Shown: positions 9,933 to 27,161 of the stretch, in pieces | Layout of the letters: every line of letters begins with the position of its first letter | How positions within the stretch are numbered: the first letter of the stretch is position 1 | From: Streptomyces sp. NBC_00440 | GTDB lineage: Bacteria > Actinomycetota > Actinomycetes > Streptomycetales > Streptomycetaceae | DNA: 64,000 nt | Reading direction: 5' to 3' | Assembly (NCBI RefSeq): GCF_036014215.1 | Contig: NZ_CP107921.1 | Coordinates: 372,001 to 436,000, forward strand | Position numbers and translations under genes: made by a program | Notes under the pieces: generated by a model | Database searches by the model: none | What the model was told of the DNA's origin: nothing | What the model saw: only the letters and a program-made list of their open reading frames with translations

Positions 9933-10087
9933 AGGTTCCCCTCAGCACCTCAACCAGCTGGCAGAATCCGTCAGTTGGCAACTCTCCGCTGGTCAGGCGG
10001 TCGGTTGTGCGATGATCCGTCAGATTAACATGGCACGCACACGCGACTTGTGGCCTGTGCGTCCAGCACAGCGGCCGGATCGCCGGG

Positions 10088-12599: not shown

Positions 12600-13471
12600 G
12601 GGTGAGTTCCCCTCCTGTCGGTGTCTTCCGGCGCCGTGCCGGATTCGGATTCCGGCTCCGTCTGTGGCGCTGGTTGTGTCCACGGCTCCGGTGCCTGTGC
12701 AGCCAGGGTGAGACGCCAGCGGACCTCGCCGCTGCGCGGAACGCACGCGGCGTCCCCGTCCCGCGCGGCCGCCAGGTCGAACACCCGGCCGAGCATGGGC
12801 TCGACGCCCACGGACCGGTACGGCTCCCGCTCGGGGAAGCCGCCGAGGTTGCGCCACACCGCCACGGACACCGGCTGGCCTTCGGCCTCGACGGCCATGC
12901 GCAACGTGGCCGCGCCATCGCGGACGTACACCTGTGGGGTGTCGACGACGGCGCCGACCGCCGTCCCGTCATCCGGCCCGAGACGGTCGAGCCCTGCCGT
13001 CCGCCCCGGCTGCGACGGCCAGGAACAAGGGGTCCACCGGGCGCCGCTGTCGGGATAGAAGCGGGTCGGCGTGCCGTCCCTGATCCCGATGTGCGCCTCC
13101 TCCGAGAGATCGAACAGCGCGTGCGCGGCCCACAGGAAGCGGTAGCCGGGTTCGGCCGTGAGCCGGTAGTCGGCCACCGCGCGGTCCCCGTCGCTGCGAA
13201 TCCGGCGGCTGAGCCGGAAGTCCGGGCAGTCGACGGACTCGGTGCCACCGGCCCGCTGCCAGGGCCGGGTCCAGGCAGCGCCGTGGTCAGGTGTGCCGCG
13301 TACGGTCGGTACGCATTCCTCCAGGCCACCGGCGTCGGCGAAGGCGTCGCCCGGGATGGCGCCGGGGCGGCGCGGCTCGTCACGGTGCCAGAGCCATTCG
13401 CGGCCGGCCGCCCGCAGCGACGTCCACCTCCCGCCGCAGGCCGGGTCGGTCTCGATTCTGATGGTGGGCAT
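12587..13471 (-). CDS. Aldose 1-epimerase-like protein
   Basis: A 294-residue beta-sandwich protein resembling galactose mutarotases: GGRWTSLRAAGREWLWHRDE at the N-terminus, GGLEECVPTV near 50, a conserved FLWAAHALFDL near 115 (the His position) and GVEPMLGRVFDLA near 240 with the acidic residue. In this operon it could supply the beta anomer of galactose for the dehydrogenase, or act on a related hexose. ATG at 13471 is given; a GTG at 13480 would overlap the dgoD stop by 4 bp and may be the true coupled start. It overlaps the downstream aldolase gene by 13 bp. Confidence 0.65.
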   Translation of the reverse strand: MPTIRIETDPACGGRWTSLRAAGREWLWHRDEPRRPGAIPGDAFADAGGLEECVPTVRGTPDHGAAWTRPWQRAGGTESVDCPDFRLSRRIRSDGDRAVADYRLTAEPGYRFLWAAHALFDLSEEAHIGIRDGTPTRFYPDSGARWTPCSWPSQPGRTAGLDRLGPDDGTAVGAVVDTPQVYVRDGAATLRMAVEAEGQPVSVAVWRNLGGFPEREPYRSVGVEPMLGRVFDLAAARDGDAACVPRSGEVRWRLTLAAQAPEPWTQPAPQTEPESESGTAPEDTDRRGTHPWIC

Positions 13472-13476
13472 CGTGC

Positions 13477-14622
13477 TCACCACTCGGCGAAGGCGCCGTC
13501 GTCGTACCGCCACACCGGATTGCGCCAGGCGTGCCCGGACCGGTCGGCCGCGCGTACGGCGCTCTCCTCCACCGTGACACCGAGCCCCGGCAGGGCAGTG
13601 CGCCGCGCCCGTCCGCCGACGAAGCGGAAGGGTTCGGTGTCCACGACGTACGAGAGCAGGTCGGCGTCCTTGTTGTAGTGGATGCCCCGGCTCTGCTCCT
13701 GGATGAGGAAGTTCGGGGTGGCGAAGGCGATCTGGAGACTGGCGGCGAGTGCGATGGGGCCGAGGGGGCAGTGCGGGGCGAGTTGCGCGCCGTAGGTCTC
13801 GGCGAGCGAGGCGATGCGGTGGACCTCGGAGATGCCTCCGGCGTGCGAGGGGTCCGGCTGGGCGACCGCGATGCCGGCCGTGAGGGCGGGCAGGAAGTCG
13901 GCCCGCCCGTACAGCCGTTCGCCGGTGGCGATGGGTACGGAGGTGGCGCCGACGAGGGCGGGCAGCAGGTGCCCCTGTTCCGGAAGGAGCGGTTCCTCCA
14001 CGAACAGCGGGTGCAGCGGCTCGATGGCGTGCAGGACCCGGCGGGCGCCGGCCGGTCCGAATCTGCCGTGCATGTCGATGGCCACATCACGGCCGGGGCC
14101 GAGGACCGCACGGGCGGCGCTCACCCGATCGACGACGGCGGCGGTCTCCGCGGGGGTGGCGAGGGGTGTGGTGCGGCCCGCCGCGTTCATCTTGACGGCG
14201 GTGAAGCCGGCCTCGACCTGGGCGGTGATCTCCTCGGTGAGCTGGGCGGGTTCGTCGCCGCCGACCCAGGCGTAGACCCGCACCTCGTCGCGGACCGGAC
14301 CGCCGAGCAACGCGTGCACGGGCGCGCCGTAGGCCTTGCCCGCAATGTCCCAGAGGGCCTGGTCGATACCGGCGACGGCGCTGGAGAGAATCGGGCCGCC
14401 CCGGTAGAAGCCGCCCTTGCTGAGCACCTGCCAGTGGTCCTGGATGCGCAGCGGGTCCTTGCCGATCAGGTATTCGGCGAGGACATCGACGGCGGCGCGT
14501 ACGACCTCGGCCCGGCCCTCGACGACGGGCTCCCCCCAGCCGACGATGCCCTCGTCGGTCTCGATCCGGCAGAACAGCCAGCGTGGCGGTACGAGGAAGG
14601 TCTCGATACGAGTGATCTTCAC
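13477..14622 (-). CDS. dgoD: D-galactonate dehydratase
   Basis: A 381-residue enolase-superfamily protein whose sequence follows E. coli DgoD closely along its whole length, from KITRIETFLVPPRW at the start to NPVWRYDDGAFAEW at the end. Catalytic features: AIDMHGR (metal Asp and the family His) near 185, FVEEPLLPEQ (metal Glu) near 210, IATGER (metal Glu) near 236, and LAPHCPLGPIALA (catalytic His) near 286. It removes water from D-galactonate to give 2-keto-3-deoxygalactonate. The ATG overlaps the GntR gene stop by 4 bp. The presence of a bona fide DgoD is the firmest basis for calling the operon a galactonate pathway. Confidence 0.93.
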   Translation of the reverse strand: MKITRIETFLVPPRWLFCRIETDEGIVGWGEPVVEGRAEVVRAAVDVLAEYLIGKDPLRIQDHWQVLSKGGFYRGGPILSSAVAGIDQALWDIAGKAYGAPVHALLGGPVRDEVRVYAWVGGDEPAQLTEEITAQVEAGFTAVKMNAAGRTTPLATPAETAAVVDRVSAARAVLGPGRDVAIDMHGRFGPAGARRVLHAIEPLHPLFVEEPLLPEQGHLLPALVGATSVPIATGERLYGRADFLPALTAGIAVAQPDPSHAGGISEVHRIASLAETYGAQLAPHCPLGPIALAASLQIAFATPNFLIQEQSRGIHYNKDADLLSYVVDTEPFRFVGGRARRTALPGLGVTVEESAVRAADRSGHAWRNPVWRYDDGAFAEW

Positions 14623-15362
14623 CGGTTCGCGGTCCCCTCGTCGGTGGCCGGCCGGGTGCCGTGGGCCCGGTCGAGGTCCCGTACGGCCTGGTCGAGCAGG
14701 TCCCGCATGGCGCTTTCGGCAGCAGCCGGGTCCTGGTCGCGTACGGCGTCGAGCACAGCCCGGTGGCTGGGTACGGGGTCCTCGCCGTGCGGCGAGCTGT
14801 GCACGATCTCGTCGCGGTGCGCGAGGCCCGACTCGATGACCATCTCCATGCGTTCGAGCAACTCGTTGTGGGTGGCCGCGAGGAGCGCGCGGTGGAAGGC
14901 GAGGTCCGCCTCGACCGCGTGGGCCGCGCCGCCCGCCTGCTCACCCATCGCGGCGAGGGCCGCTTCGAGTGCGTCCAGGTCGGCATCGGTGCGTCGGGCG
15001 GCGGCCAGCCGGACAGCGGCCGGCTCGATGATGCCGCGCACCTCGCCGAGGTTGTGCAGCAGTGCCAGGTCGGTGCCGGAGCCGGTGCCACCCGCGAACT
15101 GCCAGCGCAGCACGTCCGCGTCGAGGAGGTTCCAGTCCGCGCGGGCTCTGACGAAGGTGCCGCGCTTCTGACGCGCGTCGACCATCCCCTTCGCGGCGAG
15201 GACCTTCAGGGACTCCCGCAAGGCGGTCAGGCTGACGTCCAACTCGGCCTGCAGCGCCACGAGATCGAGGGTCGCTCCTTCGGGGATCTCGCCGCTCAGC
15301 ACCCGGCGCGCGAGAGTCTCCACGGTCTGGCCGTGCACTCCGCGGCGCGCGTATGGCGTCAT
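14619..15362 (-). CDS. GntR/FadR-family regulator of the galactonate operon
   Basis: A 247-residue regulator. Residues 8-75 form the winged helix (VETLARRVLSGEIPEGATLD, then ALQAELDVSLTALRESLKVL and a KRGTFV wing). Residues 90-240 form an all-helical FCD domain, with acidic and His residues (DLAFHRALL, HRDEI, HRAVLDAV) suited to bind a metal and a sugar acid. Its position directly before dgoD and coupling to it suggest it senses galactonate or a lactone and controls this operon, like DgoR in enterobacteria. The operator is not defined. Confidence 0.87.
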   Translation of the reverse strand: MTPYARRGVHGQTVETLARRVLSGEIPEGATLDLVALQAELDVSLTALRESLKVLAAKGMVDARQKRGTFVRARADWNLLDADVLRWQFAGGTGSGTDLALLHNLGEVRGIIEPAAVRLAAARRTDADLDALEAALAAMGEQAGGAAHAVEADLAFHRALLAATHNELLERMEMVIESGLAHRDEIVHSSPHGEDPVPSHRAVLDAVRDQDPAAAESAMRDLLDQAVRDLDRAHGTRPATDEGTANR

Positions 15363-15439
15363 GTCTGTGTGCCTTCCTGGTGTGCGATTGACGATGAGTA
15401 CGGAGACGGTCAGGTCCTGCGCTACGGCTACGGAGAGGG

Positions 15440-16198
15440 TCAGGCCGAGGCCTTGACGACGGACCAGCCGCCGTCCACCAGCAGGCTCGATCCCGTGATG
15501 TAGGACGCCTCGTCGGCGGCGAGAAACGCGATCGCCGCCGCGGCCTCCCCGGGGGTACCGAAACGCTTGGCGGCAGTCTCGGCGACGCTCTGCCTCCGGT
15601 CATCCTCCGGAACCCGGTCCCATGCCCCGGTGAGGATGGGGCCGGGCAGGACCGCGTTGACTCGCACCTCGGGTCCGTACTCCACGGCCAGTTGTCCGCA
15701 CAGAGAGAGCAGGGCGCCCTTGGACGCCGCGTACGCGGGATGCCCGGGGATGCCCTTGTGGGCGTGGACCGAGGAGGTGAGCACCACGGCGCCGCGGCGT
15801 TCACGCAGGTCGGGAAGGACCGCACGGAAGCCGAGGAATGCTCCGGTGAGGTTCACCGCGAGCTGGCGCTCCCACGAGGTGACGGTCATCTCGTGCGCGG
15901 GGGTGACGTCGACCGTGAAGGCGTTGCTCACCAGGATGTCGACGGCGCCGAACGTGTGCGCCGCGGAGACGATCCGCCCCCAGTCGCCCTCGTCCGCGAC
16001 GTCCGCCCGGACGAAGAGGGCCCGGCTGCCCGCCGCCCGGATGCCCCCGGCGACACACTCGCCCGCGTCCTCGGCGATGTCGGCGAGGATCACCGCGGCG
16101 CCTTCGGCGGCGAGCCGTTCGGCGGTGGCCGCGCCGATGCCCGACGCGGCTCCGGTGACCACTGCCACCTTGTCGGCGAAGCGGGTGTTTCCGTTCAT
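15440..16198 (-). CDS. SDR-family oxidoreductase (probable aldose 1-dehydrogenase)
   Basis: A 252-residue classical short-chain dehydrogenase. TGAASGIGAATAERL near residue 16 is the NAD(P)-binding loop, ADVADEG near 65 binds the adenine, and TSSVHAHKGIPGHPAYAASK contains the catalytic Ser and YxxxK. Asp in LADIAED at the end of beta-2 suggests NAD preference. As first gene of an operon with lactonase, DgoD, kinase and aldolase, oxidation of galactose to its lactone is the natural role; this is inferred from context. The open frame extends upstream to 16339 but the motif-aligned start is the ATG at 16198. Confidence 0.82.
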   Translation of the reverse strand: MNGNTRFADKVAVVTGAASGIGAATAERLAAEGAAVILADIAEDAGECVAGGIRAAGSRALFVRADVADEGDWGRIVSAAHTFGAVDILVSNAFTVDVTPAHEMTVTSWERQLAVNLTGAFLGFRAVLPDLRERRGAVVLTSSVHAHKGIPGHPAYAASKGALLSLCGQLAVEYGPEVRVNAVLPGPILTGAWDRVPEDDRRQSVAETAAKRFGTPGEAAAAIAFLAADEASYITGSSLLVDGGWSVVKASA

Positions 16199-16255
16199 GG
16201 GTCTGTCGGCTCCTCGGGTGGTGAAGCTGTCGGCGATTCCGCACGCGCGCCCACG

Positions 16256-16300
16256 GAACGAGGGCCCGGCCTCCTGACCCAGGCGGCCGGGCCCTCGTTC
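16256..16300. terminator. Perfect 16-bp hairpin between the beta-helix gene and the galactonate operon
   Basis: Arms at 16256-16271 and 16285-16300 pair without mismatch around a 13-nt loop. The element lies 110 bp past the stop of the beta-helix gene and 58 bp before the SDR start. There is no long T tract, as is common for Streptomyces terminators. It may instead be a leader hairpin of the SDR operon. Confidence 0.65.
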
Positions 16301-16334
16301 GGCTGATACAGAGTGACGGGGCGAGCGGGCCACC

Positions 16335-16370
16335 GTCAAGATTAATTACTAATTTATATGCTGGCTTGAC
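16335..16370. promoter_or_regulatory. AT-rich island flanked by GTCAAG/CTTGAC (candidate promoter/operator)
   Basis: GTCAAG at 16335-16340 and CTTGAC at 16365-16370 are inverted around a run of mostly A and T (ATTAATTACTAATTTATAT), striking against the GC-rich surroundings. On the minus strand it supplies a TTGACG element facing the SDR-dgoD operon. It could be the operator of the GntR protein encoded downstream. Confidence 0.45.
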
Positions 16371-16409: not shown

Positions 16410-18566
16410 TCACGAGAGACCGATCCGGCTCATGGGTATCGGCTGGTAGCCCGGGAGTTGAGCGGCGATCAGGTCGTCGTTGCCCAGGGTCGGCTTCCCG
16501 TCCACGACCGTCACGACGCCGGGGTCGGCAGTGAGCGTCAGATTGCGGTCGACCGTTCCGTACGTGCGCGCGGACGGGGCGATGTCCAGCGCGGCGACAC
16601 CGCAGAGCGCGTTGTACTCGACGACGTCGTACTTCGGGTAGGCCGGCTGGTCGTCGGCGATGTTCACGAGGTGCGGATAGCGCGAGCGCCACGGCTCCTT
16701 CCGGTAGGGAACGGCGGCCAGCAGGTCGTACATCCCCCACGCGCCGCCGGGTGCCACGTCCCCCGCCGCCCAGTTGAGTCCCCGCTCGTCGAGCGTCACC
16801 GAATGGACGGACGACAGGATGATGTTGTTGCTGATGACATTGTCCCGGCCCCCGCCGATCTGGAAGGCGGTGTCGACCTTGTAGAAGATGTTGCCGAACG
16901 CCGTCGTTCCGCAGAAGCAGTCGTCGAGGTAGATGCCCGAGGCGAAGAGGGATCCGCCGCTTCCCACGATGTCGTGCAGGAAGTTGTAGCGGATGACCGT
17001 GCCGCGTCCGGTCCACTCCCGTCCCGCGTAGATGGCGCCGGCGTCGTTGGTCTCCTTCACCACATCGTTGATCTCGTTGTACTCGATCACGTGGTCGTTG
17101 CCCCGGAAGACGATGGCGACGTGCGGCGCATCGTAGATGTGGTTGTTGGCGACGTGGTTCCCGACACCGGCGAGTTCGACCGCGGGGCTGTACGTCAGCT
17201 GGAGGCGGCTGTAGTCGTGGATCTCGTTGCCGACCGCCCGGTTGCGCGCCGGGGTGAGGGTGGCCCGGTCGCCGCCGGCGAGGGCGATGCCACCCTGGCC
17301 GGTGGCCTGGATGTGGCAGCCGCGGACCTCGTTCCCCGATCCGCCGTGCGGGCCGGCCGAGACGCTTGAGTCGCCGATCGCGACCGCGCGACCGCCCAGA
17401 AGCCGCAGGGTGCAGTCCGCGACCGTGTTGGACGTGCCGTCCGTGATGACGATGCCGTCGCCGCGCGACCCCTCGAACACAAGGTCCGAGAACGTGACGT
17501 GCGAGCAGCCATTGAGGACGGCCATCGGGTCGGCGAGCAGCGACAGTTGCACCGACGCGCCGGACAGGTCGCCCGGAGGGTACAGATACAGCTTCCCGGT
17601 GGCCCGGTCGAGGTACCACTCGCCCGGCGAGTCGAGCTCCTCCAGCACGTTGTAGTAGTAGTAACGCCGGCCCGCCCCGACGGTGTACATGCTGGCGGTC
17701 CTGGTGGAGATGGTCTGCGCCGCCGGGTCGATCGCCTTGATCTGAAGGTTGCCGTCGGCCCACTCGTAGAACCAGTAGCCCTGCATCCACACGTCGCTGG
17801 TGTCGGCCCAGGTCGACGGCCGGGGGTCGGTGTACGTGAACGTGGCCCCCTTGGCGAATTCGGCGGCCATCTTGTCGGGGTCGCCGAGGACACTGCGGGG
17901 GTTCCCGCCCGGGTCGATGACCTGACCGACGGCGAGGAACTCGGTGTTCGGGTAACGGGCGAGGGTCATCGCCTCGCTGTTGAAGAACAGTTCGGGCGGG
18001 GTGACCGCGCGCGGCAGGCCGTATCCGGTCTGGACGATCTGGCCGTAGTCGGTGATCCCGAGCGCCTTCAGGTCGAACTCGCGGACGGTGTCGCGCGACC
18101 CGGCCGGGAGGCGGTCCCGTATCGCCTGGTCGCCGACCGGCCCGAAACCGGTAGCCGGCAGGTCCACGCCACCCACGAGCCGGACCTGTTCGCCGTGGTA
18201 GGCGGCGTAGGTGACCGGGCGGCCCGGCGCACCGGAGTCCTGCGCTTCGAGGGTGAAGCTCCGCGTCCGCCGGTACGTGCCGCCCCGGAGGAAGACGGTC
18301 ACCGGTTGAGCGGCACGGCCCGGCGCGGCCCGCCGCCAGGTCCGGATCACGTCGCGCGCCTTCTCCAGCGTCGCGAACGGCGCGGCCTTCGTGCCCCGGT
18401 TCGAGTCCTTCCCGTCCGTTGCCACGAAGAAGGTCTTCTGCTCCTCGGCCCGGTCCCGCCGGTCACCGGTACCGGCGTAGGCCGGCCCGGCGATGAGGGC
18501 TGCCGACGCACCGGCCCCGACGGCCCCGGCGGCCTTGAAGAGATCACGTCGCGAGAATCTGGACAT
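16410..18566 (-). CDS. Tat-exported right-handed parallel beta-helix protein
   Basis: A 718-residue protein with a Tat signal (SRRDLFKAAGAVGAGAS, cut near AYA at about 32). The mature N-terminus FFVATDGKDSNRGTKAAPFATLEKAR region is the usual start of secreted beta-helix carbohydrate enzymes. From about residue 330 many short coils follow (SNTVADCTLRLLGG, NEVRGCHIQATG, NHVANNHIYDAPH, NVISNNIILSS), the pattern of a parallel beta-helix. Lyases and glycosidases share this fold, so the reaction cannot be named. It is divergent from the sugar ABC operon through a promoter with shared operators, so it probably attacks the polymer outside the cell. Not frameshifted. Confidence 0.82.
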   Translation of the reverse strand: MSRFSRRDLFKAAGAVGAGASAALIAGPAYAGTGDRRDRAEEQKTFFVATDGKDSNRGTKAAPFATLEKARDVIRTWRRAAPGRAAQPVTVFLRGGTYRRTRSFTLEAQDSGAPGRPVTYAAYHGEQVRLVGGVDLPATGFGPVGDQAIRDRLPAGSRDTVREFDLKALGITDYGQIVQTGYGLPRAVTPPELFFNSEAMTLARYPNTEFLAVGQVIDPGGNPRSVLGDPDKMAAEFAKGATFTYTDPRPSTWADTSDVWMQGYWFYEWADGNLQIKAIDPAAQTISTRTASMYTVGAGRRYYYYNVLEELDSPGEWYLDRATGKLYLYPPGDLSGASVQLSLLADPMAVLNGCSHVTFSDLVFEGSRGDGIVITDGTSNTVADCTLRLLGGRAVAIGDSSVSAGPHGGSGNEVRGCHIQATGQGGIALAGGDRATLTPARNRAVGNEIHDYSRLQLTYSPAVELAGVGNHVANNHIYDAPHVAIVFRGNDHVIEYNEINDVVKETNDAGAIYAGREWTGRGTVIRYNFLHDIVGSGGSLFASGIYLDDCFCGTTAFGNIFYKVDTAFQIGGGRDNVISNNIILSSVHSVTLDERGLNWAAGDVAPGGAWGMYDLLAAVPYRKEPWRSRYPHLVNIADDQPAYPKYDVVEYNALCGVAALDIAPSARTYGTVDRNLTLTADPGVVTVVDGKPTLGNDDLIAAQLPGYQPIPMSRIGLS

Positions 18567-18658
18567 GTAGTGCCCTTTCGTAGGTACCTACTGGAACCGG
18601 GCCCTCGGTCCGGGCGAACAGCGCCTCCGGGCCGAGCCTTCGTTGCGGGATGCTCCGA

Positions 18659-18686
18659 CTATCGATAATCGCTGAGCGATAAGTAG
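18659..18686. promoter_or_regulatory. Operator-like palindrome in the beta-helix gene promoter
   Basis: TATCGATA (18660-18667) is followed by the 13-bp palindrome ATCGCTGAGCGAT (18668-18680). It lies just downstream of a perfect minus-strand -35 box TTGACA at 18710-18705, so a bound protein would cover the -10 and transcription start of the beta-helix gene. Confidence 0.65.
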
Positions 18687-18830
18687 TGGGTCGGCAGTGG
18701 CGAGTGTCAAGGGATCCTTCAAATCCCGCCGCAAGAAACCGAGTTCATGCGCCTCGCAGGTTGCGAACCGGTAACGCTGCCGTTGCCGACCCTTGACCAC
18801 CGGCCGACAGGTCCCCGATGGTGAGGTCGC

Positions 18831-18862
18831 TATCGATAAGCGATAAGCGATTAGCGATCGAT
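18831..18862. promoter_or_regulatory. Four tandem heptamers at the start of the ABC operon
   Basis: TATCGAT, AAGCGAT, AAGCGAT and TAGCGAT follow each other without gap from 18831 to 18858, then CGAT. The array ends 10 bp before the start codon of the solute-binding protein gene and touches its ribosome site. The same elements occur at 18659-18686 on the other arm of the divergent promoter, so one regulator, most likely the GntR protein at 26481, probably controls both units. Confidence 0.7.
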
Positions 18863-18872
18863 GGAGGGTTCG

Positions 18873-20132
18873 ATGGTTTCGGGTTCTCGCCGGCATCTGG
18901 TCAAGCTGGGTGCCATCGCCGTATCCGCCGCACTGCTCACGGGCTGCTCGACCGGCACGGACTCCGCAGGCGGCGACAGGAACATCCGCATGCTGGTCAA
19001 CATCACTCCGGTGCTGACCAAGCAGTTCTACAAGGACCTGGTGGCGGGGTACGTCGCCGGCCACCCCGGGGTGAAGGTCACGATCGAGGCGCCCACCGGC
19101 AGGGGCATCGAGGACACGCTGAAGCAGCAACTGGCCGCGGGCAGCCCGCCCGACGTCCTCGCCGGCGGGCAGAACACGGCTCTCGCCGCGCAGATGGCGC
19201 CGCTGCCCGACGCACAGTGGGTGAAGGACGCACCGTTCGCGGAGGCGTCCAAGCTCGACGGCAAGGTGTGGATGGCCGGTACCGGCGTCCAGCTCCAGTC
19301 GCTGGTCTTCTACAACAAGGCCGCCTTCGCCAAGGCCGGTGTCACCGGGACGCCCAAGACCTTCGACGAGTTCACCGCCGCGCTGCGCAAGCTGAAGGGC
19401 GCCGGATACACGCCGATGCAGACCGGCGGTGAGTGGACCACCGGCGCGCAGGCCCTGATGATGGCCAACCCGAACGTGATGAACACCGAGCCGCAGTGGT
19501 ACGCAAAGCGGAACAAGGGCTCCGTGACCTTCGCCGGCAGCAACTACGCCAAGTACCTGGACGTCTACCAGTCCTGGATCAAGGACGGCCTGGTTCCCAA
19601 GGACGCCAACGGCATCAAGTACCAGGACATGATCAACAACTTCACGGCCGGCAAGTCGGCGACGATGGTGATGGGCAACTGGCTGACGGCCTCGCTCGCC
19701 GGAGCGAAGCCGGGCTTCGACACGGGCGTGTTCCCGGTCCCCACGTTCGACGGCTCCACGCCGCCGCAGGCCGCCAACCCGGCCATGCCGTACTCGGTGC
19801 TCAAGAGCTCCAGGCACGCGGACGCGGCGATAGACCTGGTGAAGTACCTGGTCAGCGACAAGAAGGCGATCACGAAGGCGCTGAGCGCGGAGGGCAACTT
19901 CCGTACCGGATACAGCTACAAGACCACCCCGCTGACCAACGACATCGCGAAGCTCCTCGACAAGGCCGGCGGCAAGACCGTCGCGATCGGCCCGGGACTG
20001 GGCGACAACTCATCCCCTGCGGGCTTCCCCGATGAGTTCAACACCCAGGTCCAGAGCATGTATCTGGGAACCACAGCCGATCAGGTGGCGCGGACCATGG
20101 ACAAGTGGTGGGCCGCGAATGCGCCCAAGTAA
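18873..20132 (+). CDS. Sugar ABC transporter substrate-binding lipoprotein
   Basis: A 419-residue family 1 extracellular solute-binding protein. The lipobox LLTGC places the acylated Cys at residue 25 after an RRHLVKLG basic start. The middle contains KVWMAGTGVQLQSLVFYNKAAF and PKTFDEFTAALRKLKGAGYTP, the hinge pattern of carbohydrate-binding members. ATG at 18873 has GGAGGG 4 bp upstream; an ATG at 18861 in the same frame lies inside the operator array and is less likely. First gene of the eight-gene operon. Ligand unknown; expected to be an oligosaccharide released by the divergent beta-helix enzyme. Confidence 0.92.
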   Translation: MVSGSRRHLVKLGAIAVSAALLTGCSTGTDSAGGDRNIRMLVNITPVLTKQFYKDLVAGYVAGHPGVKVTIEAPTGRGIEDTLKQQLAAGSPPDVLAGGQNTALAAQMAPLPDAQWVKDAPFAEASKLDGKVWMAGTGVQLQSLVFYNKAAFAKAGVTGTPKTFDEFTAALRKLKGAGYTPMQTGGEWTTGAQALMMANPNVMNTEPQWYAKRNKGSVTFAGSNYAKYLDVYQSWIKDGLVPKDANGIKYQDMINNFTAGKSATMVMGNWLTASLAGAKPGFDTGVFPVPTFDGSTPPQAANPAMPYSVLKSSRHADAAIDLVKYLVSDKKAITKALSAEGNFRTGYSYKTTPLTNDIAKLLDKAGGKTVAIGPGLGDNSSPAGFPDEFNTQVQSMYLGTTADQVARTMDKWWAANAPK

Positions 20133-21099
20133 CGTGACGCTCACCGCTCCTGGACCACCGGACAACCCGCCGGTCCAAGAGCGCCCCCGTCGCACTCACC
20201 ACACTCCCCCGCGCCCGCTGCGCGTACGCGCCGCCCGCAGCCTGCCCAGCATCCTCATGGTCGGCCCCGCACTGGCTGCGGTCGTGGCCTTCATCCTCAT
20301 CCCCGTCGTGGTCGCCGGACGGCTCAGCCTCACCGACTGGGACGGCTTCTCCGACAGTTACAAGTCCCTCGGCCTGGACAACTACGTTCAGCTGTTCCAC
20401 GATCCGGGCGTGGCGAACGCTGCGTACGTCACGCTCGTGATCGCGGTGGTCGGCACCCTGGCCTGCAATGTCCTCGGCCTGGGCCTCGCGGTCATGCTCA
20501 ACGGCAAGGGGCGCGCCAAAGCGGTACTGCGGGGCCTGTTCTTCTACCCGCATGTGCTCGGCGCGGTCATCATCGGCTTCCTGTGGTCGGCCATACTCAG
20601 CAGCGAAGGAGCGGTCAACACCCTCCTCACAGCGGCACACCGCTCGAAGATCCCGTTCCTGTCCGATCCGCAGTGGGCGCTCGCAGCGGTCGTCTTCGTG
20701 GTGGTCTGGTCGACGTTCGGCGTGAACGTGGTTCTCTACCTCGCCGGGCTGCAGACGATCCCGGAGTCGCTCCTGGAAGCGGCGCGTATCGACGGCGCCT
20801 CACGCTGGCAGACGTTCCGCCAGGTCGTGCTGCCGATGCTGGCACCCAGCGTGACGATCAACGTGGTCCTCGTACTCGTCCAACTGCTGCGGGTCTACGA
20901 CCTGGTGCTGGCGATGACCGACGGGGGTCCGGCCGGCCACACGCAGACGTACGCGTACCTGGTGCTTTCGGAGTCGTTCCTGAACGGGAAGATCGGCTAC
21001 GCCTCGGCCCAGAGCATCGTCCTCATGATCGTCATCACGGTGCTCGCCGTCGTGATCGTGGCGCTGCGCCAGCGCAGCGAGAAGGCGGTGGAACAGTGA
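20119..21099 (+). CDS. Sugar ABC transporter permease (MalF type)
   Basis: A 326-residue permease with six membrane segments; residues 1-45 are a Pro/Arg-rich cytosolic tail. The coupling EAA loop is ESLLEAARIDGASRWQTFRQ near residue 215, with the expected EAA---G pattern, and the C-terminal GGPAGHTQTYAYLV is typical of MalF-like sugar permeases. The ATG at 20119 overlaps the binding-protein gene; the GTG at 20134 just after its stop is an alternative start. It pairs with the next gene. No ATPase is encoded here, as usual in streptomycetes, which share an MsiK-like subunit. Confidence 0.9.
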   Translation: MRPSNVTLTAPGPPDNPPVQERPRRTHHTPPRPLRVRAARSLPSILMVGPALAAVVAFILIPVVVAGRLSLTDWDGFSDSYKSLGLDNYVQLFHDPGVANAAYVTLVIAVVGTLACNVLGLGLAVMLNGKGRAKAVLRGLFFYPHVLGAVIIGFLWSAILSSEGAVNTLLTAAHRSKIPFLSDPQWALAAVVFVVVWSTFGVNVVLYLAGLQTIPESLLEAARIDGASRWQTFRQVVLPMLAPSVTINVVLVLVQLLRVYDLVLAMTDGGPAGHTQTYAYLVLSESFLNGKIGYASAQSIVLMIVITVLAVVIVALRQRSEKAVEQ

Positions 21100-21932
21100 A
21101 CCGCACTGCAGGCAGCCGCGTCGGCTCGGTCATGCTGGGCCTCTTCGCCCTGGTCATGCTGGCGCCGCTGTACCTCGTGATCGTCAACGCGTTCAAACCG
21201 GAGTCGGCGATCCGTCAACGGCCGTTCTCCGCCGCCCCGGGGTTGCTGTCCACGGACTATCTCCGAGCGGCGCTGTCGTCACCGGACTACAACATCGTCA
21301 AGTCGTTCGGTGTGACGGTGATGTTCGTGGTCCTGGTCAACGTGCTGTCCCTGGCGCTGGCCGGTCCGGCCGCCTACGTCATCGCGCGGGGTACCCGCCG
21401 GTGGCACAAGGGGATGCTGCTGGTGTTCCTGGCCGGGCTGTTCATCCCCGGGCAGGTCCTGGTCATCCCGGTGATCTACGTACTGCGCTTCACGGGCCTG
21501 ATGGGCACGATCCCCGGATTCGTCCTGTACGAGGCGACGCTGACCCTGCCGCTGTCGATGTTCCTGTTCGTGGGCTACATCAAGTCCATCCCCCGGGAGC
21601 TCGACGAGGCGGCGCAGATCGACGGCGCGGGCCGGCTGCGCACCTTCTGGCAAGTGATCTTCCCGCTGATGCGGCCGGTCGTGGTCACCGCGATCGTCCT
21701 GCACACCATCGGGGTCTGGACGGACTTCGTGAACCCGCAGATCGTACTGGGCCCGACATCGGGCCTGTATACCGTCATGACCGGGGTGTACTCCGCGATC
21801 GGCCTCCACACCACCGACCTGTCCGTGGTCTATCCGACGCTGCTGCTGGCGATCGCACCGGTGCTGGTCTTCTTCGTGATCATGCAGCGCAAGATCGTCG
21901 GTGGCCTCACCGCCGGCGCGACGAAGGGGTGA
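21096..21932 (+). CDS. Sugar ABC transporter permease (MalG type)
   Basis: A 278-residue permease with six membrane segments. The EAA loop ELDEAAQIDGAGRLRTFWQ lies near residue 175, and the N-terminal LAPLYLVIVNAFKPESAI is typical of MalG-like subunits. GTG start overlaps the stop of the first permease by 4 bp (GTGA). Together they form the channel for the binding protein at 18873. Confidence 0.9.
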   Translation: MNRTAGSRVGSVMLGLFALVMLAPLYLVIVNAFKPESAIRQRPFSAAPGLLSTDYLRAALSSPDYNIVKSFGVTVMFVVLVNVLSLALAGPAAYVIARGTRRWHKGMLLVFLAGLFIPGQVLVIPVIYVLRFTGLMGTIPGFVLYEATLTLPLSMFLFVGYIKSIPRELDEAAQIDGAGRLRTFWQVIFPLMRPVVVTAIVLHTIGVWTDFVNPQIVLGPTSGLYTVMTGVYSAIGLHTTDLSVVYPTLLLAIAPVLVFFVIMQRKIVGGLTAGATKG

Positions 21933-21934
21933 CC

Positions 21935-23878
21935 GTGGGCAAGCACATGGTGAGCGTGACGGCGTCCGTGCCGGCCGGTGAACCGCCCGCCTGGGCCGTA
22001 CTGCAAAGGCAGTTGTTCTCGGTACTGGACGAGGCATGGCGGGTTTTCGAGGACCGGTACTGTCACTCCGACGGCGGGCTGCGCTTCGACGGGGTCCTGG
22101 AAGGCCGTGACGGAGCGGACGACTTCTACGAACCGTTCTTCAACTGGCCGATGCTGTACCTGCTCGGCGGGGCGGACGACCTGCTCGACGCCAGCAAGAA
22201 ACACTGGAACGGCATCACCCGGCAGCTTTCCGAAGCCGGGTTCCTGGTCGACGAGTACGAGCGCGGGTACGACTGGTTCCACCAGGGCGAGTCGCTGCTG
22301 ATGTTCTACGGGATCTGCGCGGCCGACCCGTCCGACGACGCGTTCCGCCGGCGGGCGCTGCGCTTCGCCGACCTCTACCTGCCCACCTCGCCCGTCGGGA
22401 ACGTCGACGGCTCGCAGCGGATCATCCGGGCTCCGCACACCGGGGCCGGCGGGCCGCGCCGTGGCGTGGATGACGCATGGGCGCAGGGGTTCGGCGCGGA
22501 GCTGACCAACATGAAGCCGTACGGCCTGCCCCTGGAGGACCTTCCCGGGATCGACACCTGGGACGATCTGGCCGACCCCGGTAACGCGCGGCGTATGGGC
22601 GAGGCGATGAACCGGCGGCTCGGCGACGGCGATGTCGCGGTGAATCTCGCGTCCACCTCGCTGATCGCCAACGCGTGGCTGTACACGGGCGAGGACCGGT
22701 ACCGCGACTGGCTCGTCGACTACGTGCAGGCCTGGCGGGACCGGGCCGCCGCCGCGGGCGGCGTCATCCCCGACAACGTGGGGCCCTCCGGCGAGGTCGG
22801 TGAGCTGCACGACGGCCGCTGGTACGGCGGCCCGTACGGCTGGACCTGGCCGCACGGTCTGCACAGCGTCGGCGCGGTCGCGGTCGTCGCTGCCATGAAC
22901 GCCGCTCTGGTCACCGGCGACAACGCGTGGTTCGACCTGGCCCGCGCCCCGCTGGACCGGGTGCTGGAAGAGGCGACGCGCGGGCCGGTCCGTGACGGTG
23001 ACTCCAGCATGGCCATGACCTGGCTCCAGCGTCTCGGGCCCGATGCCGGCAGCGACCTGCAACTGGTGCCCTACCGGTACGGCCTGCACGGCTGGTTCGA
23101 CCACCAGCCGCTGCAGATCGCCTTCCCGGCCTGGATCTGGTGGTGCTCCGGCGATCCGCAGGACCGGCAGCGGCTGGACCGCGTGGAGCGGGACTGCGGC
23201 TACGACTGGACGACCGTGCACGCCTTTCGCGACAAGGAGGAGGCCGGACACGAGGCGCCGTGGCTCGCCTACCTCGACGGTCGCAACCCCGACTACCCGG
23301 CCCGGGCCCTCGGCATGGCGCTGGGGCAGGTCGCCCGCAGGATGGCACTCGTCCGCGAGGATACGACCACCGCCCGCACCGATGACATCCACTGGTGGCA
23401 GCGGCTCAATCCCGTGGTGACCGAGATTCTGGTGCAGCTGACCACGGGCGCTCCCGCCACCCCCTACAACGGGGGGCTCCAGCAGGCCCGGGTGCGCTAC
23501 TGGGACGCCGACCGGGGCCGTCCCGGCCTGCCGGCCGACGTCGCCGCCCTCGTCGAGGGGCTCGACGAGACCCGGGTCTGCGTCCAGTTGGTCAACCTGA
23601 GCCATACGCGCGAGCGGCGTGTGGTCGTGCAGGCCGGCGCGTTCGCCGAGGACGGCATCGACCATGTCGTGGTGGACCAACTCGACAGCGGCTATCCCGG
23701 CCCGAACCGCGCCTACCGGGCGGACGAGTTCACGACCAGTACCCGGCGCACGGACGTGCGCGACAGCCACCTGCTGGTGACCCTGCCGCCGGGGACCCGG
23801 CTCGGTCTGACCATGCAGGTGAGGCGCCGTCAGTTCACCCCGAGCCACCCGACGTTCGACCGATACCAGGAGAAGTAG
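21935..23878 (+). CDS. Large intracellular protein, possible (alpha/alpha) barrel carbohydrate enzyme
   Basis: A 647-residue protein without signal peptide or membrane segment. I do not recognise the family. Repeating helix pairs with aromatic motifs (NWPMLYLLGGADDLLDASKK, ERGYDWFHQGESLLMFYG, TWPHGLHSVGAVAVVAAMN, HGWFDHQPLQIAFPAW) look like an alpha/alpha toroid as in six-hairpin glycosidases and polysaccharide lyases. From about residue 530 a smaller, strand-rich end follows. Acidic and His residues around DWFHQGES and YGGPYGWTWPHG would be active-site candidates. GTG at 21935 has AAGGGG 5 bp upstream; GTG at 21929 (overlapping the permease stop) and ATG at 21947 are alternatives. Its place right after the permeases suggests it acts on the imported oligosaccharide. 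Confidence 0.7.
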   Translation: MGKHMVSVTASVPAGEPPAWAVLQRQLFSVLDEAWRVFEDRYCHSDGGLRFDGVLEGRDGADDFYEPFFNWPMLYLLGGADDLLDASKKHWNGITRQLSEAGFLVDEYERGYDWFHQGESLLMFYGICAADPSDDAFRRRALRFADLYLPTSPVGNVDGSQRIIRAPHTGAGGPRRGVDDAWAQGFGAELTNMKPYGLPLEDLPGIDTWDDLADPGNARRMGEAMNRRLGDGDVAVNLASTSLIANAWLYTGEDRYRDWLVDYVQAWRDRAAAAGGVIPDNVGPSGEVGELHDGRWYGGPYGWTWPHGLHSVGAVAVVAAMNAALVTGDNAWFDLARAPLDRVLEEATRGPVRDGDSSMAMTWLQRLGPDAGSDLQLVPYRYGLHGWFDHQPLQIAFPAWIWWCSGDPQDRQRLDRVERDCGYDWTTVHAFRDKEEAGHEAPWLAYLDGRNPDYPARALGMALGQVARRMALVREDTTTARTDDIHWWQRLNPVVTEILVQLTTGAPATPYNGGLQQARVRYWDADRGRPGLPADVAALVEGLDETRVCVQLVNLSHTRERRVVVQAGAFAEDGIDHVVVDQLDSGYPGPNRAYRADEFTTSTRRTDVRDSHLLVTLPPGTRLGLTMQVRRRQFTPSHPTFDRYQEK

Positions 23879-23879
23879 A

Positions 23880-24668
23880 ATGATGAGCGATGAGCAGGCC
23901 CAGCCGGTGTTCTCCCTTCCGGTGCGCGGCGACACATACCGGCGTGCCGATGCGGAGCTGGTGGACCAGATGGGCCAGGTGAGCAGCGCCACCGCCTGCG
24001 CGAAGCTCCACGGCCTGGGCATCAGGCGCACGTGGATGGAGGGGCCGCAGCCCCTCGCGACCGGGCAGAAGATCGCCGGGTCGGCGTTGACGCTCCAGTT
24101 CATGCCGCAGCGCGAGGACATAGCGAGCGGCCTGGCCCAGGAGGCCGTCGAACGCCAGACCGCCCTGTGGGCGGTGCTGGAGGCGGTGCAGCCCGGCGAC
24201 GTCCTCGTCATCCAGGCGTACGGGTCGGCGTTCAGCGGCTGCGTCGGCGACATGCTCGTCCGCTACTTCAAGCGCAAGGGCGGCGCCGGGATCGTCGTCG
24301 ACGGCCGGATCCGGGACGCGCCGCGGGTACGCGAGCTCGGCGTGCCGATCTGGTGCACCGGCACCACCCCGCACTACGCCTCCCAGTCGGAGCTGTTCCC
24401 CTGGGCGTACGACGTGCCGGTTGCCGCCGGCGGAGTGCTGTGTCTGCCCGGGGACATCGTGGTCGCCGATGACGACGGCGCCGTCGTCGTCCCGCAGGCG
24501 ACCGCGCCGGAGGTGGTCGCCACCGCCCAGGACCACCAGGAGTGGGAGGTGTTCAGCCGGATGCGTCTGGACCAGGGCGCCCGGCTCGGCCACTACTACC
24601 CGCTGACGTCGGAGTCGCGCGCGGAGTACGAGCAGTGGCGCGACCAGAAGCGGTCGTCCCAGCGATGA
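23880..24668 (+). CDS. RraA-like protein (HMG/CHA aldolase superfamily)
   Basis: A 262-residue protein of the RraA/dimethylmenaquinone-methyltransferase-like family. VSSATACAKLHGLG near residue 35, QPGDVLVIQAYG near 105 and GIVVDGRIRDAPRVRELGVPIW near 140 are the family core; the Arg-Asp of GRIRD is the pair used for pyruvate binding and metal contact in 4-hydroxy-4-methyl-2-oxoglutarate aldolase. RNase E inhibition is therefore less likely than a catabolic lyase or aldolase role. The body is longer than RraA of about 160 residues, matching catabolic relatives. AGGAG precedes the ATG; the second ATG at 23883 is equally possible. Confidence 0.78.
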   Translation: MMSDEQAQPVFSLPVRGDTYRRADAELVDQMGQVSSATACAKLHGLGIRRTWMEGPQPLATGQKIAGSALTLQFMPQREDIASGLAQEAVERQTALWAVLEAVQPGDVLVIQAYGSAFSGCVGDMLVRYFKRKGGAGIVVDGRIRDAPRVRELGVPIWCTGTTPHYASQSELFPWAYDVPVAAGGVLCLPGDIVVADDDGAVVVPQATAPEVVATAQDHQEWEVFSRMRLDQGARLGHYYPLTSESRAEYEQWRDQKRSSQR

Positions 24669-25603
24669 ACCATGTCTCGGGCCCGGGTGTGCTGGGCCGC
24701 ACCGGACTCACGGTCGGCAGGCTCGGCCTCGGCTGCGCGCCCCTGGGCAACCTGTACGAACCGGTTCCGGAGCAGGACGCCGCCGGCACGGTGCGTGCCG
24801 CGCTGGCGGGCGGGACGCGCCTGTTCGACACCGCCCCGCGGTACGGCAACGGCGTGTCCGAACAGCGCCTCGGCCAGGCACTGGCCGGGGTGCCCAGGTC
24901 CGAGGTCGTCGTCGCGACCAAAGTCGGATACCTGCTCACCGACGACGGCGCCGAGCCGGACTTCTCCTATGACGGCACCATGCGGTGCCTGGAGGAGAGC
25001 CTGACCCGGCTCGGCCTGGACCGGGTGGACATCGCGCATGTGCACGACCCCGACCACCATGAGCAGGAGGCCCTCGCGGGGGCCTTCCGCGCCCTGGTCG
25101 AACTGCGGGAGCAGGGCGTGGTGTCGGCGGTGGGCGCGGGCATGAACCAGAGCGCCATGCTGGAACGGATCGTCGCGCGGGCCGACGTGGACTGCGTGCT
25201 GCTGGCCGGTCGGTACACTCTCCTCGACCAAGAAGCTCTGACGGGCCTGCTCCCTGCGTGCGAGGCCCGCGGTGTCGGGGTCGTGCTGGGCGGGGTGTAC
25301 AACTCCGGCCTGCTGGCCGATCCGCGGCCCGGTGCGAGGTACGACTACCGGACAGCCGAGCCGCACCAGGTTGCCGCCGCGCTGGCCATCGCGGAGATCT
25401 GTGCCCGTCACGGGGTGCCGATGAAGGCGGCGGCCCTGCGGTTCGCGTGGGGGCATCCTGCCGTGTCCGCTCTGGTCGTCGGAGCCAGGACGGCCGATGA
25501 AGTGCGGGAGAACCTCGCCATGGCGCAGACCACCGTTCCCGCCGGCCTGTGGGCGGAGCTGCGCGCGGCGGGGCTGCTCCCGCAGGAGGTGCCCACGCCG
25601 TGA
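24665..25603 (+). CDS. Aldo/keto reductase (aldose 1-dehydrogenase type)
   Basis: A 312-residue TIM-barrel oxidoreductase. LFDTAPRYGNGVSEQRLG near 55 holds the catalytic Asp and Tyr, VVVATKVG near 85 the Lys, and the DRVDIAHVHDPD stretch near 125 the His. This variant fits the D-threo-aldose/L-fucose/L-galactose dehydrogenase branch, which oxidises the sugar to its 1,4- or 1,5-lactone with NAD(P). The lactonase candidate follows directly. ATG overlaps the RraA gene stop by 4 bp. The exact sugar is not visible. Confidence 0.85.
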   Translation: MNHVSGPGVLGRTGLTVGRLGLGCAPLGNLYEPVPEQDAAGTVRAALAGGTRLFDTAPRYGNGVSEQRLGQALAGVPRSEVVVATKVGYLLTDDGAEPDFSYDGTMRCLEESLTRLGLDRVDIAHVHDPDHHEQEALAGAFRALVELREQGVVSAVGAGMNQSAMLERIVARADVDCVLLAGRYTLLDQEALTGLLPACEARGVGVVLGGVYNSGLLADPRPGARYDYRTAEPHQVAAALAIAEICARHGVPMKAAALRFAWGHPAVSALVVGARTADEVRENLAMAQTTVPAGLWAELRAAGLLPQEVPTP

Positions 25604-26481
25604 CCGTCATCGACGCACACGTCCACCTGTGGGACCCCGGCCTGCACGACCACGCGTGGCTGCGGTCCGCGGGCGACCTGCATCGCCCCTTCCTTCTCGA
25701 CGACCTCACCGCGGCCGCCGGATCGGTGACGGCTGTTGTCGTGCAGGCCGGGCGGACGGTGGACGAGGCCCGCTGGCTGCTGGGCCTGGCGGCGCGGTCC
25801 GCGCGGCTCGCGGGCGTCGTCGTCCACGCGGATCTCGCCGATCCGGCCGCTGTGGACACGATCGACGCACTCCGTGCGGAGGACGGGAGTTCGGCACTGG
25901 TCGGAGTCCGCGACCCGGTCGGGGCGGGCGAGGGCGCCCGCCTCGGACTGCCCCAGGTGCGGCGCTCGCTCGCGGCCCTCGGTGAGCGGGGCCTGACGAT
26001 GGACCTGCTGCTGGGGCACGGGACCCTGCACGAGGCACAGGCAGCGGCCAGGGACCTGCCGCAGGTGCGGTTCGTCGTCGACCACGCCGCCATCTCGGCC
26101 GTCGACGTGCGGCGCGAGGGCCTCGGCGAATGGGCCGCGCAGCTGACGCCACTGGGCCGGCTGCCCAACGTGGTGTGCAAGTTGTCCGGACTCGGCAGGG
26201 CCACCGCCGAACCGGGCGGAGTGCGCCCGGACGCCGTGGCCCGGGTACTGCTCGACGTGTTCGGGCCGCGCCGGCTGATGTTCGGGTCCGACTGGCCGGT
26301 CAGCACCCAGTGGTCGCCGTACGAGGACGTGGCCGGGGCCACGGCCCGGGTGCTGGACGGGTTGAAACCCGACGAAGCCGCCGCGGTCCTGGGCGGAACG
26401 GCCGTCAGGGCCTACGGACTTGAGCCGGCGGACACGTCCGCCGGCGACAGGATGACAATGATCCGGCAGAGGGAGCACTGA
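25600..26481 (+). CDS. Amidohydrolase-family sugar lactonase candidate
   Basis: A 293-residue amidohydrolase-2 protein. The N-terminal DAHVHLWDP is the metal-binding HxH motif of L-fuconolactonase/L-rhamnonolactonase-like enzymes; VDHAAISAVDVR near 160 has a conserved His, and MFGSDWPVSTQWSPY near 225 the catalytic Asp. Together with the aldose dehydrogenase just upstream it would hydrolyse the lactone to the aldonate. GTG start shares two bases with the upstream stop and has AGGAGGT upstream. No sugar-acid dehydratase follows in this operon. Confidence 0.83.
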   Translation: MTVIDAHVHLWDPGLHDHAWLRSAGDLHRPFLLDDLTAAAGSVTAVVVQAGRTVDEARWLLGLAARSARLAGVVVHADLADPAAVDTIDALRAEDGSSALVGVRDPVGAGEGARLGLPQVRRSLAALGERGLTMDLLLGHGTLHEAQAAARDLPQVRFVVDHAAISAVDVRREGLGEWAAQLTPLGRLPNVVCKLSGLGRATAEPGGVRPDAVARVLLDVFGPRRLMFGSDWPVSTQWSPYEDVAGATARVLDGLKPDEAAAVLGGTAVRAYGLEPADTSAGDRMTMIRQREH

Positions 26482-27161
26482 TGACTGGTCTGAACGATCT
26501 GCTCGAACAGAACAAGGGCATGACGTCCGGCGGGCTGCTGTCCGACCGCGTGTACCGGCTGCTGCGCTCGGCCATCCTGAGCGGCGAGATGGCGCCGGAT
26601 CAGCGGATCGTCGAATCCGACATCGCCAAACGCCTGGGCATCAGCCAGGCTCCGGTGCGCGAGGCCGTCAAGCGGCTGGTGCACGAGAGCCTGGTCACTC
26701 ATGTGCCGCGGCTGGGCAGCCGGGTCGCCAGTATCTCGATCGAGCAGGCTGAGCAGGCACGAGAACTGCGCGGTCTGCTGGAGGAGTTCGCCGCCCGGGC
26801 CGCCGCCGAGCGCCGCGCCGAGGGCTACGTCGACCAGCTGAACTCGGTGATCGACGACATGCGACGGGCAGCCCTGCACGACGACCCGAGCAGCTTCCGC
26901 GACAGCGACATGGCTTTCCACCGCCTCGTCTGCCAGGCCAGCGGAAACCACCTGCTGCCGCGGTTGTGGGAGGTGATGGAGCCCAGTCTCTGGACCCTGC
27001 GCGTGGTGTCCAACCCGTTCTACACCGGCAGCCGCGACAAGCTCGTCGACGAACACGCCCGCCTGCTCGACATCCTCGTCAACGGCCGGGAGGACGAGGC
27101 CGCGGAGGCCTTCCGCCGCCACGCGACCGGCACGGCCGGGCCTTCGCAGCACGACGAATAG
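26481..27161 (+). CDS. GntR/FadR-family regulator of the sugar locus
   Basis: A 226-residue regulator. Winged helix at 20-85 (LSDRVYRLLRSAILSGEM, then DIAKRLGISQAPVREAVKRL) and an FCD domain at 95-220 with DSDMAFHRLVCQ and the closing DEHARLLDIL, metal-binding positions of the family. Its ATG overlaps the lactonase stop by one base. As the last gene of the operon it probably feeds back on the promoter with heptamer repeats at 18659-18862, though binding is not shown. Confidence 0.87.
   Translation: MTGLNDLLEQNKGMTSGGLLSDRVYRLLRSAILSGEMAPDQRIVESDIAKRLGISQAPVREAVKRLVHESLVTHVPRLGSRVASISIEQAEQARELRGLLEEFAARAAAERRAEGYVDQLNSVIDDMRRAALHDDPSSFRDSDMAFHRLVCQASGNHLLPRLWEVMEPSLWTLRVVSNPFYTGSRDKLVDEHARLLDILVNGREDEAAEAFRRHATGTAGPSQHDE

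Follow-up and report, generated by a model that had tools for sequence, protein, structure and literature searches.

A single locus of Streptomyces coelicolor appears in two literatures, between which no connection was found in the passages and abstracts covered. In the first, agl3EFGXYZ is a putative carbohydrate transporter operon under repression by Agl3R and GlnR, Agl3EFG corresponding to Sco7167–Sco7165. In the second, RraAS2 (sco7163) is given in a review as an inhibitor of RNase ES, both in vitro and when expressed in E. coli. The subject of this study is a related locus in Streptomyces sp. NBC_00440 (genome size 8.68 Mb), which lies at positions 16410–27161 of a 64,000-nt stretch of contig NZ_CP107921.1, referred to below as the window. 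It contains nine genes: an eight-gene operon on the forward strand (18861–27161) and a divergent gene for a beta-helix protein on the reverse strand. An earlier note on this DNA had listed the same nine genes, and their order and orientation were confirmed by the open reading frames and by Pfam, with hits to SBP_bac_1, BPD_transp_1 (two genes), RraA-like, Aldo_ket_red, Amidohydro_2, GntR plus FCD, and beta-helix.

As judged from sequence, agl3EFGXYZ is the orthologue of the window operon, and RraAS2 that of its RraA protein. In an S. coelicolor-type genome (G624), as in the window and in locus L084, the order is binding protein, two permeases, large protein, RraA and aldo-keto reductase (AKR). 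The binding protein of the window, a predicted lipoprotein with the lipobox LTGC read from its sequence (18861–20132; SBP_bac_1, 120.9 bits), is the apparent Agl3E orthologue by position and by 40% identity to the S. coelicolor-type gene. Permease 1 (20119–21099; BPD_transp_1, 81 bits) and permease 2 (21096–21932; 59.2 bits), both from predicted starts, correspond to Agl3F and Agl3G. The RraA protein is 77% identical over 251 residues to the G624 copy, which itself is identical to the chain of PDB 5x15 at all 253 residues compared. The arrangements are not the same throughout. In G624 a short-chain dehydrogenase/reductase (SDR) gene and the lactonase gene follow that of the AKR, and the GntR and beta-helix genes are divergent, whereas in the window the GntR gene closes the operon and the SDR gene is absent from it. 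The GntR proteins are 52% identical over 181 residues; the beta-helix proteins are of different types, with 23% identity. Since Agl3EFG are Sco7167–Sco7165, by the G624 gene order the large protein would be Sco7164 and RraAS2 Sco7163, the latter in agreement with the published number, and the letters X and Y are tentatively assigned to these two.

In the oxidative L-fucose pathway of Xanthomonas, Burkholderia and Bifidobacterium, a dehydrogenase, an L-fuconolactonase and an L-fuconate dehydratase act in turn before a cleavage step, at which a DapA-type aldolase or an FAH-type hydrolase is expected. The present locus resembles that pathway in its AKR, its amidohydrolase-family lactonase, an L-fuconate dehydratase encoded in the genome and an SDR beside that dehydratase. 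It differs in that the dehydratase is unlinked in this genome, in that RraA takes the position of the DapA or FAH enzyme, and in that the operon includes a large helical-toroid protein, as do all of the relatives compared, which were found through it.

We hold with moderate confidence that the operon represents a catabolic module conserved among actinobacteria, with agl3EFGXYZ as its orthologue, and that it serves for the use of a polysaccharide containing an L-fucose-type sugar, that is, one with the configuration of L-fucose, L-galactose or D-arabinose. Outside the cell the polymer would be trimmed by the exported beta-helix enzyme, and the binding protein and two permeases, using a shared ATPase, would take up the resulting oligosaccharide. 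The eight genes of the operon include no ATPase gene; MsiK has been suggested as the shared ATPase of the related S. coelicolor system (PMC3924187). The 649-aa helical-toroid protein would then cut the oligosaccharide inside the cell, the AKR would oxidize the freed aldose to an aldonolactone, and the amidohydrolase would open the latter to an aldonate. An L-fuconate dehydratase, whose gene lies outside the operon here but inside the cluster in some relatives, would yield the 2-keto-3-deoxy acid, in which RraA would break a C–C bond to give pyruvate and a C3 fragment, directly or following oxidation by an SDR. The GntR protein would repress both divergent units via two repeats. The proposal is built on observed gene content, gene joints, synteny, co-occurrence, fold class, conserved active-site residues and repeats that are unique in the genome; every substrate, every reaction and the role of the repressor are what these observations suggest.

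The earlier note knew of no described pathway with this gene set. None was found here either, and a literature search, mostly without subscription papers, returned no publication that joins agl3 to RraAS2 or states the pathway; the operon and RraAS2, on the other hand, had each been described. What appears new is the proposed L-fucose-type module for sugar oxidation, in which an intracellular toroid protein of unfamiliar kind takes part and cleavage would fall to an RraA-fold protein.

Conservation of the gene set

All of the compared loci were found via the gene for the large protein, referred to here as the 647-aa protein (21929–23878; 649 aa from the start predicted in this study). For the class survey, 394 genomes were searched for this gene, and 20 regions of 8.9–20 kb were taken from 18 of the other 20 class genomes that carry it. 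For a second set of named loci, the best 80 of 580 relatives were used, and neighbours were sought within 10 kb at E≤1e–15; the neighbour counts are lower bounds, since less than 20 kb was available for 21 of the 80 loci. Gene clusters were counted in a set of 103 loci, not all of them distinct (L033 and L108 are probably one contig), and 392 genomes of the same genus were surveyed for RraA at E≤1e–80. Loci L057 and L058, whose records have no gene tables, and L065 were left out of the analysis, and L211 entered by tblastn alone.

The 647-aa gene was present in 21 of the 394 class genomes, the window copy being 99% identical to that of Streptomyces sp. NBC_01306. Matches to the AKR were found in 14 of the 20 class regions, to the lactonase in 12 and to RraA in six, one of them at 29% identity. 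The AKR, lactonase, GntR protein, both permeases and a full-length beta-helix protein with 36–37% identity were all found in L035 and in L040–L044, the latter five belonging to one genus. In L049, L050 and L052, by contrast, the 647-aa gene is accompanied only by matches to enolase-family, SDR and GntR proteins or by a distant permease.

Among the 80 named loci, permease 2 was matched in 59 (many at 25–33% identity), permease 1 in 46, RraA in 38, the binding protein and the lactonase in 36 each, the AKR in 35, the GntR protein in 33 and the beta-helix protein in 14. The RraA match in L151, one of the 38, is merely 30% identical and is likely to be another protein. RraA and AKR occur together in 27 loci, under 14 genus-level or broader names. 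It is apparent that the operon with its divergent beta-helix gene recurs in several actinobacterial families. Synteny in related genomes, whose absence the earlier note had named as one of two possible refutations of its proposal, was thus present, and because the gene set recurs in other families it is one conserved unit, more than would be expected by chance.

The sugar and the oxidative route

An oxidative, non-phosphorylative route of the L-fucose type, as the earlier note had proposed, is the best reading of this conserved unit, and three lines of evidence make an L-fucose-type sugar the likely substrate class. The first is locus L047 (a 1.55 Mb contig), in which the 647-aa gene is overlapped by an enolase-family gene whose product matches the L-fuconate dehydratase 2hne at 594 bits. 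The gene cluster to which this enolase-family gene belongs was found in the fetched region of five of the 103 loci, two members being fragments at a region edge. The second is co-occurrence. L-Fuconate dehydratase (E≤1e–100) was found in all 21 class genomes that carry the 647-aa gene, as against 77 of the 373 that lack it (Fisher 3.5e–14, a value inflated by shared ancestry); at the genus level the figures were 10/10 and 24/127 (2.9e–7, inflated in the same way). The third is a GH95-type gene cluster, present in 11 of the 103 loci, five of them named Nonomuraea, with a representative that scores 557.8 bits to GH95. GH95 is a family of alpha-L-fucosidases and alpha-L-galactosidases. L-Fuconate dehydratase also accepts L-galactonate and D-arabinonate, so the evidence fixes the class of the sugar rather than the exact sugar.

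The NBC_00440 genome has its own L-fuconate dehydratase gene at C1:1332763–1334079. This gene is 62% identical to that of L047 and is separated from the operon by 0.93 Mb. An SDR gene overlaps it, and the encoded protein is 65% identical to the SDR inside the S. coelicolor-type operon; from the overlap we infer that it is a KDF dehydrogenase, the family and PDB searches having returned general SDR matches and nothing more specific. A GH95 match lies at C1:1351016, 17 kb from the dehydratase. In the surrounding region (L063, C1:1324000–1343999), the dehydratase and SDR genes are followed by an Rbs-like ABC transporter, as read from the sequence, with a GntR-like gene near; this is perhaps a second locus of the genome for an L-fucose-type sugar, in that case a free one.

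The two oxidation enzymes of the operon are compatible with such a substrate. The best solved relatives of the AKR (24665–25603; Aldo_ket_red, 166.8 bits) are L-galactose dehydrogenases, at 143.2 bits, and its family is suitable for an aldose 1-dehydrogenase, here probably of the L-fucose/L-galactose type. The D, Y, K and H motif stretches, presumably those of the AKR catalytic tetrad, are present. The lactonase (25600–26481; Amidohydro_2, 140.6 bits; PDB 4dlf, 97.8 bits) appears L-fuconolactonase-like, the L-fucono-1,5-lactonase model NF052480 being its sole NCBIfam match at E≤0.001. A second pair of AKR and L-fuconolactonase-like genes occurs in the same genome at C1:7495515 (L064, approximately 8486–10303), the products being 49–52% and 41% identical to the window pair. 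The second lactonase scores 231.7 bits to the NF052480 model, which is also under the equivalog cut-off of 400.

The earlier note had suggested that the missing dehydratase might be supplied by a neighbouring dgoD operon, and this part of it did not hold. The neighbouring gene product passes the cut-off for another enzyme, D-galactonate dehydratase (555.6 against 311 bits), and the adjacency is not conserved: DGOD-like matches were found in 12 of the 80 named loci, and in just three (L097, L098 and L114) at more than 35% identity. The same note's complete route from polymer to aldonate, ending in RraA, must likewise be amended, in that the dehydratase is outside the operon and the final step is inferred. 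The genome contains four dehydratase matches (E≤1e–10), none in the operon and all outside the window. It also has seven matches to an FAH-type hydrolase, a candidate for the last enzyme, none of them within 700 kb of the dehydratase.

A number of observations weigh against the module as proposed. No RraA match was found in the stretch examined for 42 of the 80 named loci. The AKR family is common, with 20 matches in this genome (E≤1e–10), so the weaker AKR neighbour matches may be due to chance, and the specificity of an AKR is not readable from its sequence. In four of the five dehydratase loci, all but L047, the dehydratase gene is some 3.5–10 kb from the 647-aa gene and not adjacent to it. 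The contexts of distant homologues of the 647-aa protein are also broader than the proposal would suggest. In three haloarchaeal plasmid regions (L053, L054 and L055) their neighbours are pectate lyases, GH28, GH4 or GH3, no fucose gene being annotated within 12 kb, and in Caldilineaceae they lie beside Gfo/Idh/MocA, PhyH, dgoD-like and other enolase-family genes. The 647-aa protein is therefore distributed more widely than any one pathway and is not specific to an L-fucose-type route.

Some of these observations favour an operon for another sugar, such as a pectin uronide, rhamnose or a galactoside unit, the link to the dehydratase then reflecting a tendency of plant-polymer degraders to carry both. 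The haloarchaeal neighbourhoods would fit, as would an Asticcacaulis homologue of the 647-aa protein near kdgD and dgoD. The window lactonase, at 139.1 bits, falls well under the NF052480 cut-off, agl3EFG are entered in a review table as induced by trehalose and melibiose rather than fucose, and the S. coelicolor-type genome G624 has the operon without an L-fuconate dehydratase at E≤1e–60, the sole negative among 16 genomes. Set against this are the dehydratase in the region of five of the 103 loci, with its overlap in L047, the GH95 cluster and the co-occurrence in 21 of 21 genomes. We regard this alternative as unlikely, although it deserves to be taken seriously.

Considerably less probable is a module that dispenses with the dehydratase, in which an SDR (in some loci) or another enzyme would oxidize the aldonate to a 2-keto or 3-keto acid and RraA would cleave or decarboxylate it, giving hydroxypyruvate plus lactaldehyde or a shortened sugar. 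G624, whose operon holds AKR, SDR, lactonase and RraA, could work in this way, and the RraA fold includes FlDet, a KDGR dehydratase/decarboxylase of alginate-derived uronic acid oxidation, as well as oxaloacetate decarboxylase activity. In locus L050 (7668–13058), from an actinobacterium with a small genome, genes for a 2-hydroxyacid dehydrogenase and a glycerate kinase flank that of the 647-aa homologue and are followed by one for an MmgE/PrpD protein, a hint that the product might be hydroxypyruvate or glycerate. L050, however, has the dehydratase and no RraA in the region examined, and every one of the 21 class genomes with the 647-aa gene possesses L-fuconate dehydratase.

Both genes, 647-aa and L-fuconate dehydratase, are present in seven small actinobacterial genomes of family f25 (1.3–1.9 Mb), and in L047, L050 and L052 the two lie within a single region. 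In L131 (Candidatus Nanopelagicaceae) the 647-aa gene is accompanied by a lactonase-like match, with no dehydratase in its 9.9 kb.

The RraA protein and the helical-toroid protein

The RraA-family protein (23880–24668; RraA-like, PF03737, 116.2 bits against a cut-off of 24.5; tentatively agl3Y) is of the RraAS2 type. The only subfamily cut-off that it passes is that of NCBIfam NF006093 (PRK08245, a 'hypothetical protein' subfamily), at 268.7 bits against 208. Its closest solved relative is PDB 5x15 (440.2 bits), whose title in the search is 'Putative transferase'. We take 5x15 to be the RraAS2 structure listed among the references of PMC8563752.

Comparison with described RraA-fold enzymes bears on what the protein might do. 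Its overall similarity to HMG/CHA aldolase (3NOJ) is low, at 77 bits, and it is below that enzyme's equivalog cut-off (NF006731; 106 against 179 bits), but the fold is shared and R145, D146 and E223 of the window protein align with R123, D124 and E199 of the aldolase active site. The three residues are kept in all 57 loci whose match reaches at least 50% identity, a set that includes some near-duplicates; in two weaker matches the E is replaced, by D in one and by H in the other. FlDet also shares the RraA-like fold with the window protein. Whereas RraAS2 figures in the literature as an RNase inhibitor, the context in the window is one of sugar-acid catabolism and the aldolase residues are intact. 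These data make us fairly confident that the protein is an enzyme of sugar-acid metabolism, probably a class II pyruvate aldolase/lyase, and suggest that the S. coelicolor RNase inhibitor group is really, or also, a sugar-acid enzyme.

That RraA is chiefly a regulator of RNase ES, merely co-transcribed and tying RNA turnover to sugar supply, is the least probable of the alternatives and very unlikely: the published inhibition by RraAS2 speaks for it, whereas, besides the aldolase residues, RraA neighbours the 647-aa gene in 37 of the 80 named loci (under 19 names at genus level or broader, with one Chloroflexota and one Spirochaetia genome), scores far below the equivalog of the E. coli-type RNase E inhibitor RraA (NF006875; 60 against 136 bits) and is found in just 16 of the 392 genomes of the genus, this one among them, which would be odd for a core RNase regulator. 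In each of the other 15 of these genomes, the 8–20 kb examined included either the 647-aa gene or the genes for the binding protein and both permeases.

The earlier note had placed RraA at the end of the route as an aldolase. That role is plausible, the catalytic residues being intact. Cleavage after SDR oxidation would be simpler where the operon holds an SDR (L084, L110 and L113), and direct cleavage simpler elsewhere.

Two further observations concern RraA. The window protein aligns, at 168 bits, with the C-terminal portion of an FAH-family model of 501 residues (NCBIfam NF009399), as if FAH and RraA domains were fused in some genomes. In L036 (10974–16616; same genus), after the 647-aa gene come genes for an L-fuconolactonase-like protein, a zinc alcohol dehydrogenase, an SDR, a KDPG-type aldolase, a PfkB kinase and an AKR, perhaps a kinase-type branch in place of RraA.

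The large protein (tentatively agl3X) has no match in Pfam (E≤0.001; the best weak match has E=0.046), NCBIfam or the PDB sequence families, and its homologues carry a precomputed PF26099 assignment. The structural model confidently predicts an (alpha/alpha)6-type helical toroid with a C-terminal beta-sandwich. A fold comparison of the Foldseek matches covered residues 19–549, and the C-terminal part barely. The scores were interleaved, at 15.3–13.3 for GH76, 14.3–13.0 for GH88, 14.1–13.2 for GH47 and 14.1–12.9 for epimerases; the comparison re-examined what Foldseek had already matched, and a family missing from it is not thereby excluded. From its predicted fold, the protein is probably an intracellular glycosidase. 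A few homologues carry the names DUF2264 and linalool dehydratase in their source annotation, and the paper search found no publication tying DUF2264 to a glycoside hydrolase. Haloarchaeal homologues account for 12 of 17 plasmid records.

It is possible, if doubtful, that RraAS2-type proteins are a new enzymatic branch of the RraA fold and not primarily RNase inhibitors, ending an L-fucose-type route by converting 2-keto-3-deoxy-L-fuconate or its 4-oxo derivative to pyruvate plus lactaldehyde or lactate, and that the PF26099-type toroid is a new glycoside hydrolase family extending from actinobacteria to haloarchaea. If so, one sugar-acid pathway would underlie both the regulation by Agl3R and the action of RraAS2 on RNase. 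The conserved context, in any case, gives the agl3 operon and RraAS2 a testable biochemical role and supplies a substrate class for a widespread, uncharacterized helical-toroid family. It also advises caution, fold alone being insufficient for calling RraA-fold proteins RNase regulators.

Beta-helix protein, repeats, gene joints and neighbouring genes

The divergent gene (16410–18566, reverse strand) encodes a beta-helix protein of 718 aa (Pfam Beta_helix, 56.2 bits). The twin-arginine motif SRRDLFK, read at its start, indicates putative Tat-type export. In profile searches it matched PDB 9rx2 at 208.8 bits, with no related publication among the matches listed, and BT_1002 (GH141) at 103.6 bits; the score for Pfam GH141_M, 22.2 bits, is under the cut-off of 27. 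D508 and D548/D549 are invariant and are 40–41 residues apart, the spacing of D523/D564 in BT1002, and the profile alignment stops short of them. By resemblance the protein may be a GH141-like, polysaccharide-active enzyme.

A 25-nt direct repeat (84%) is present in the divergent intergenic region, with one copy ahead of each gene. The copy on the beta-helix gene side is at 18659–18683 (core CTATCGATAATCG) and that directly ahead of the transporter gene at 18830–18854 (core CTATCGATAAGCG), both read on the forward strand. When the genome was scanned with the 13-bp core, one mismatch being allowed, these were the only two sites in the 8.68 Mb; the reversed control gave none. The core is therefore unique to this intergenic region, and the dehydratase locus does not share it. 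It is kept in three related Streptomyces, two of them nearly identical to each other. The repeats are probable operators, and the Agl3R-like GntR/FCD regulator at the end of the operon (26481–27161; FCD, 89.8 bits; GntR, 52.7 bits) is the obvious candidate repressor.

The earlier note had described most joints in the operon as overlaps of 1–4 bp. This applies to five of the seven: 4 bp between permease 1 and permease 2 (GTG at 21096), permease 2 and the 647-aa gene (GTG at 21929), RraA and AKR (ATG at 24665), and AKR and lactonase (25600), and 1 bp between lactonase and GntR (26481). From the predicted starts, the other two are a 14-bp overlap between binding protein and permease 1 (ATG at 20119) and a 1-bp gap between the 647-aa gene and RraA (23880). 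The start that had been given for the large gene, 21935, is a later in-frame GTG.

A further group of genes, on the reverse strand at 10088–16339 of the window, includes those for an SDR, a GntR regulator and the D-galactonate dehydratase discussed above. By sequence reading alone it also encodes an aldose-epimerase-like protein, a KDPG-type aldolase, an SMP-30-like lactonase, which has no NCBIfam match at E≤1e–20, and a sugar kinase. The group looks like a De Ley–Doudoroff route for D-galactose.

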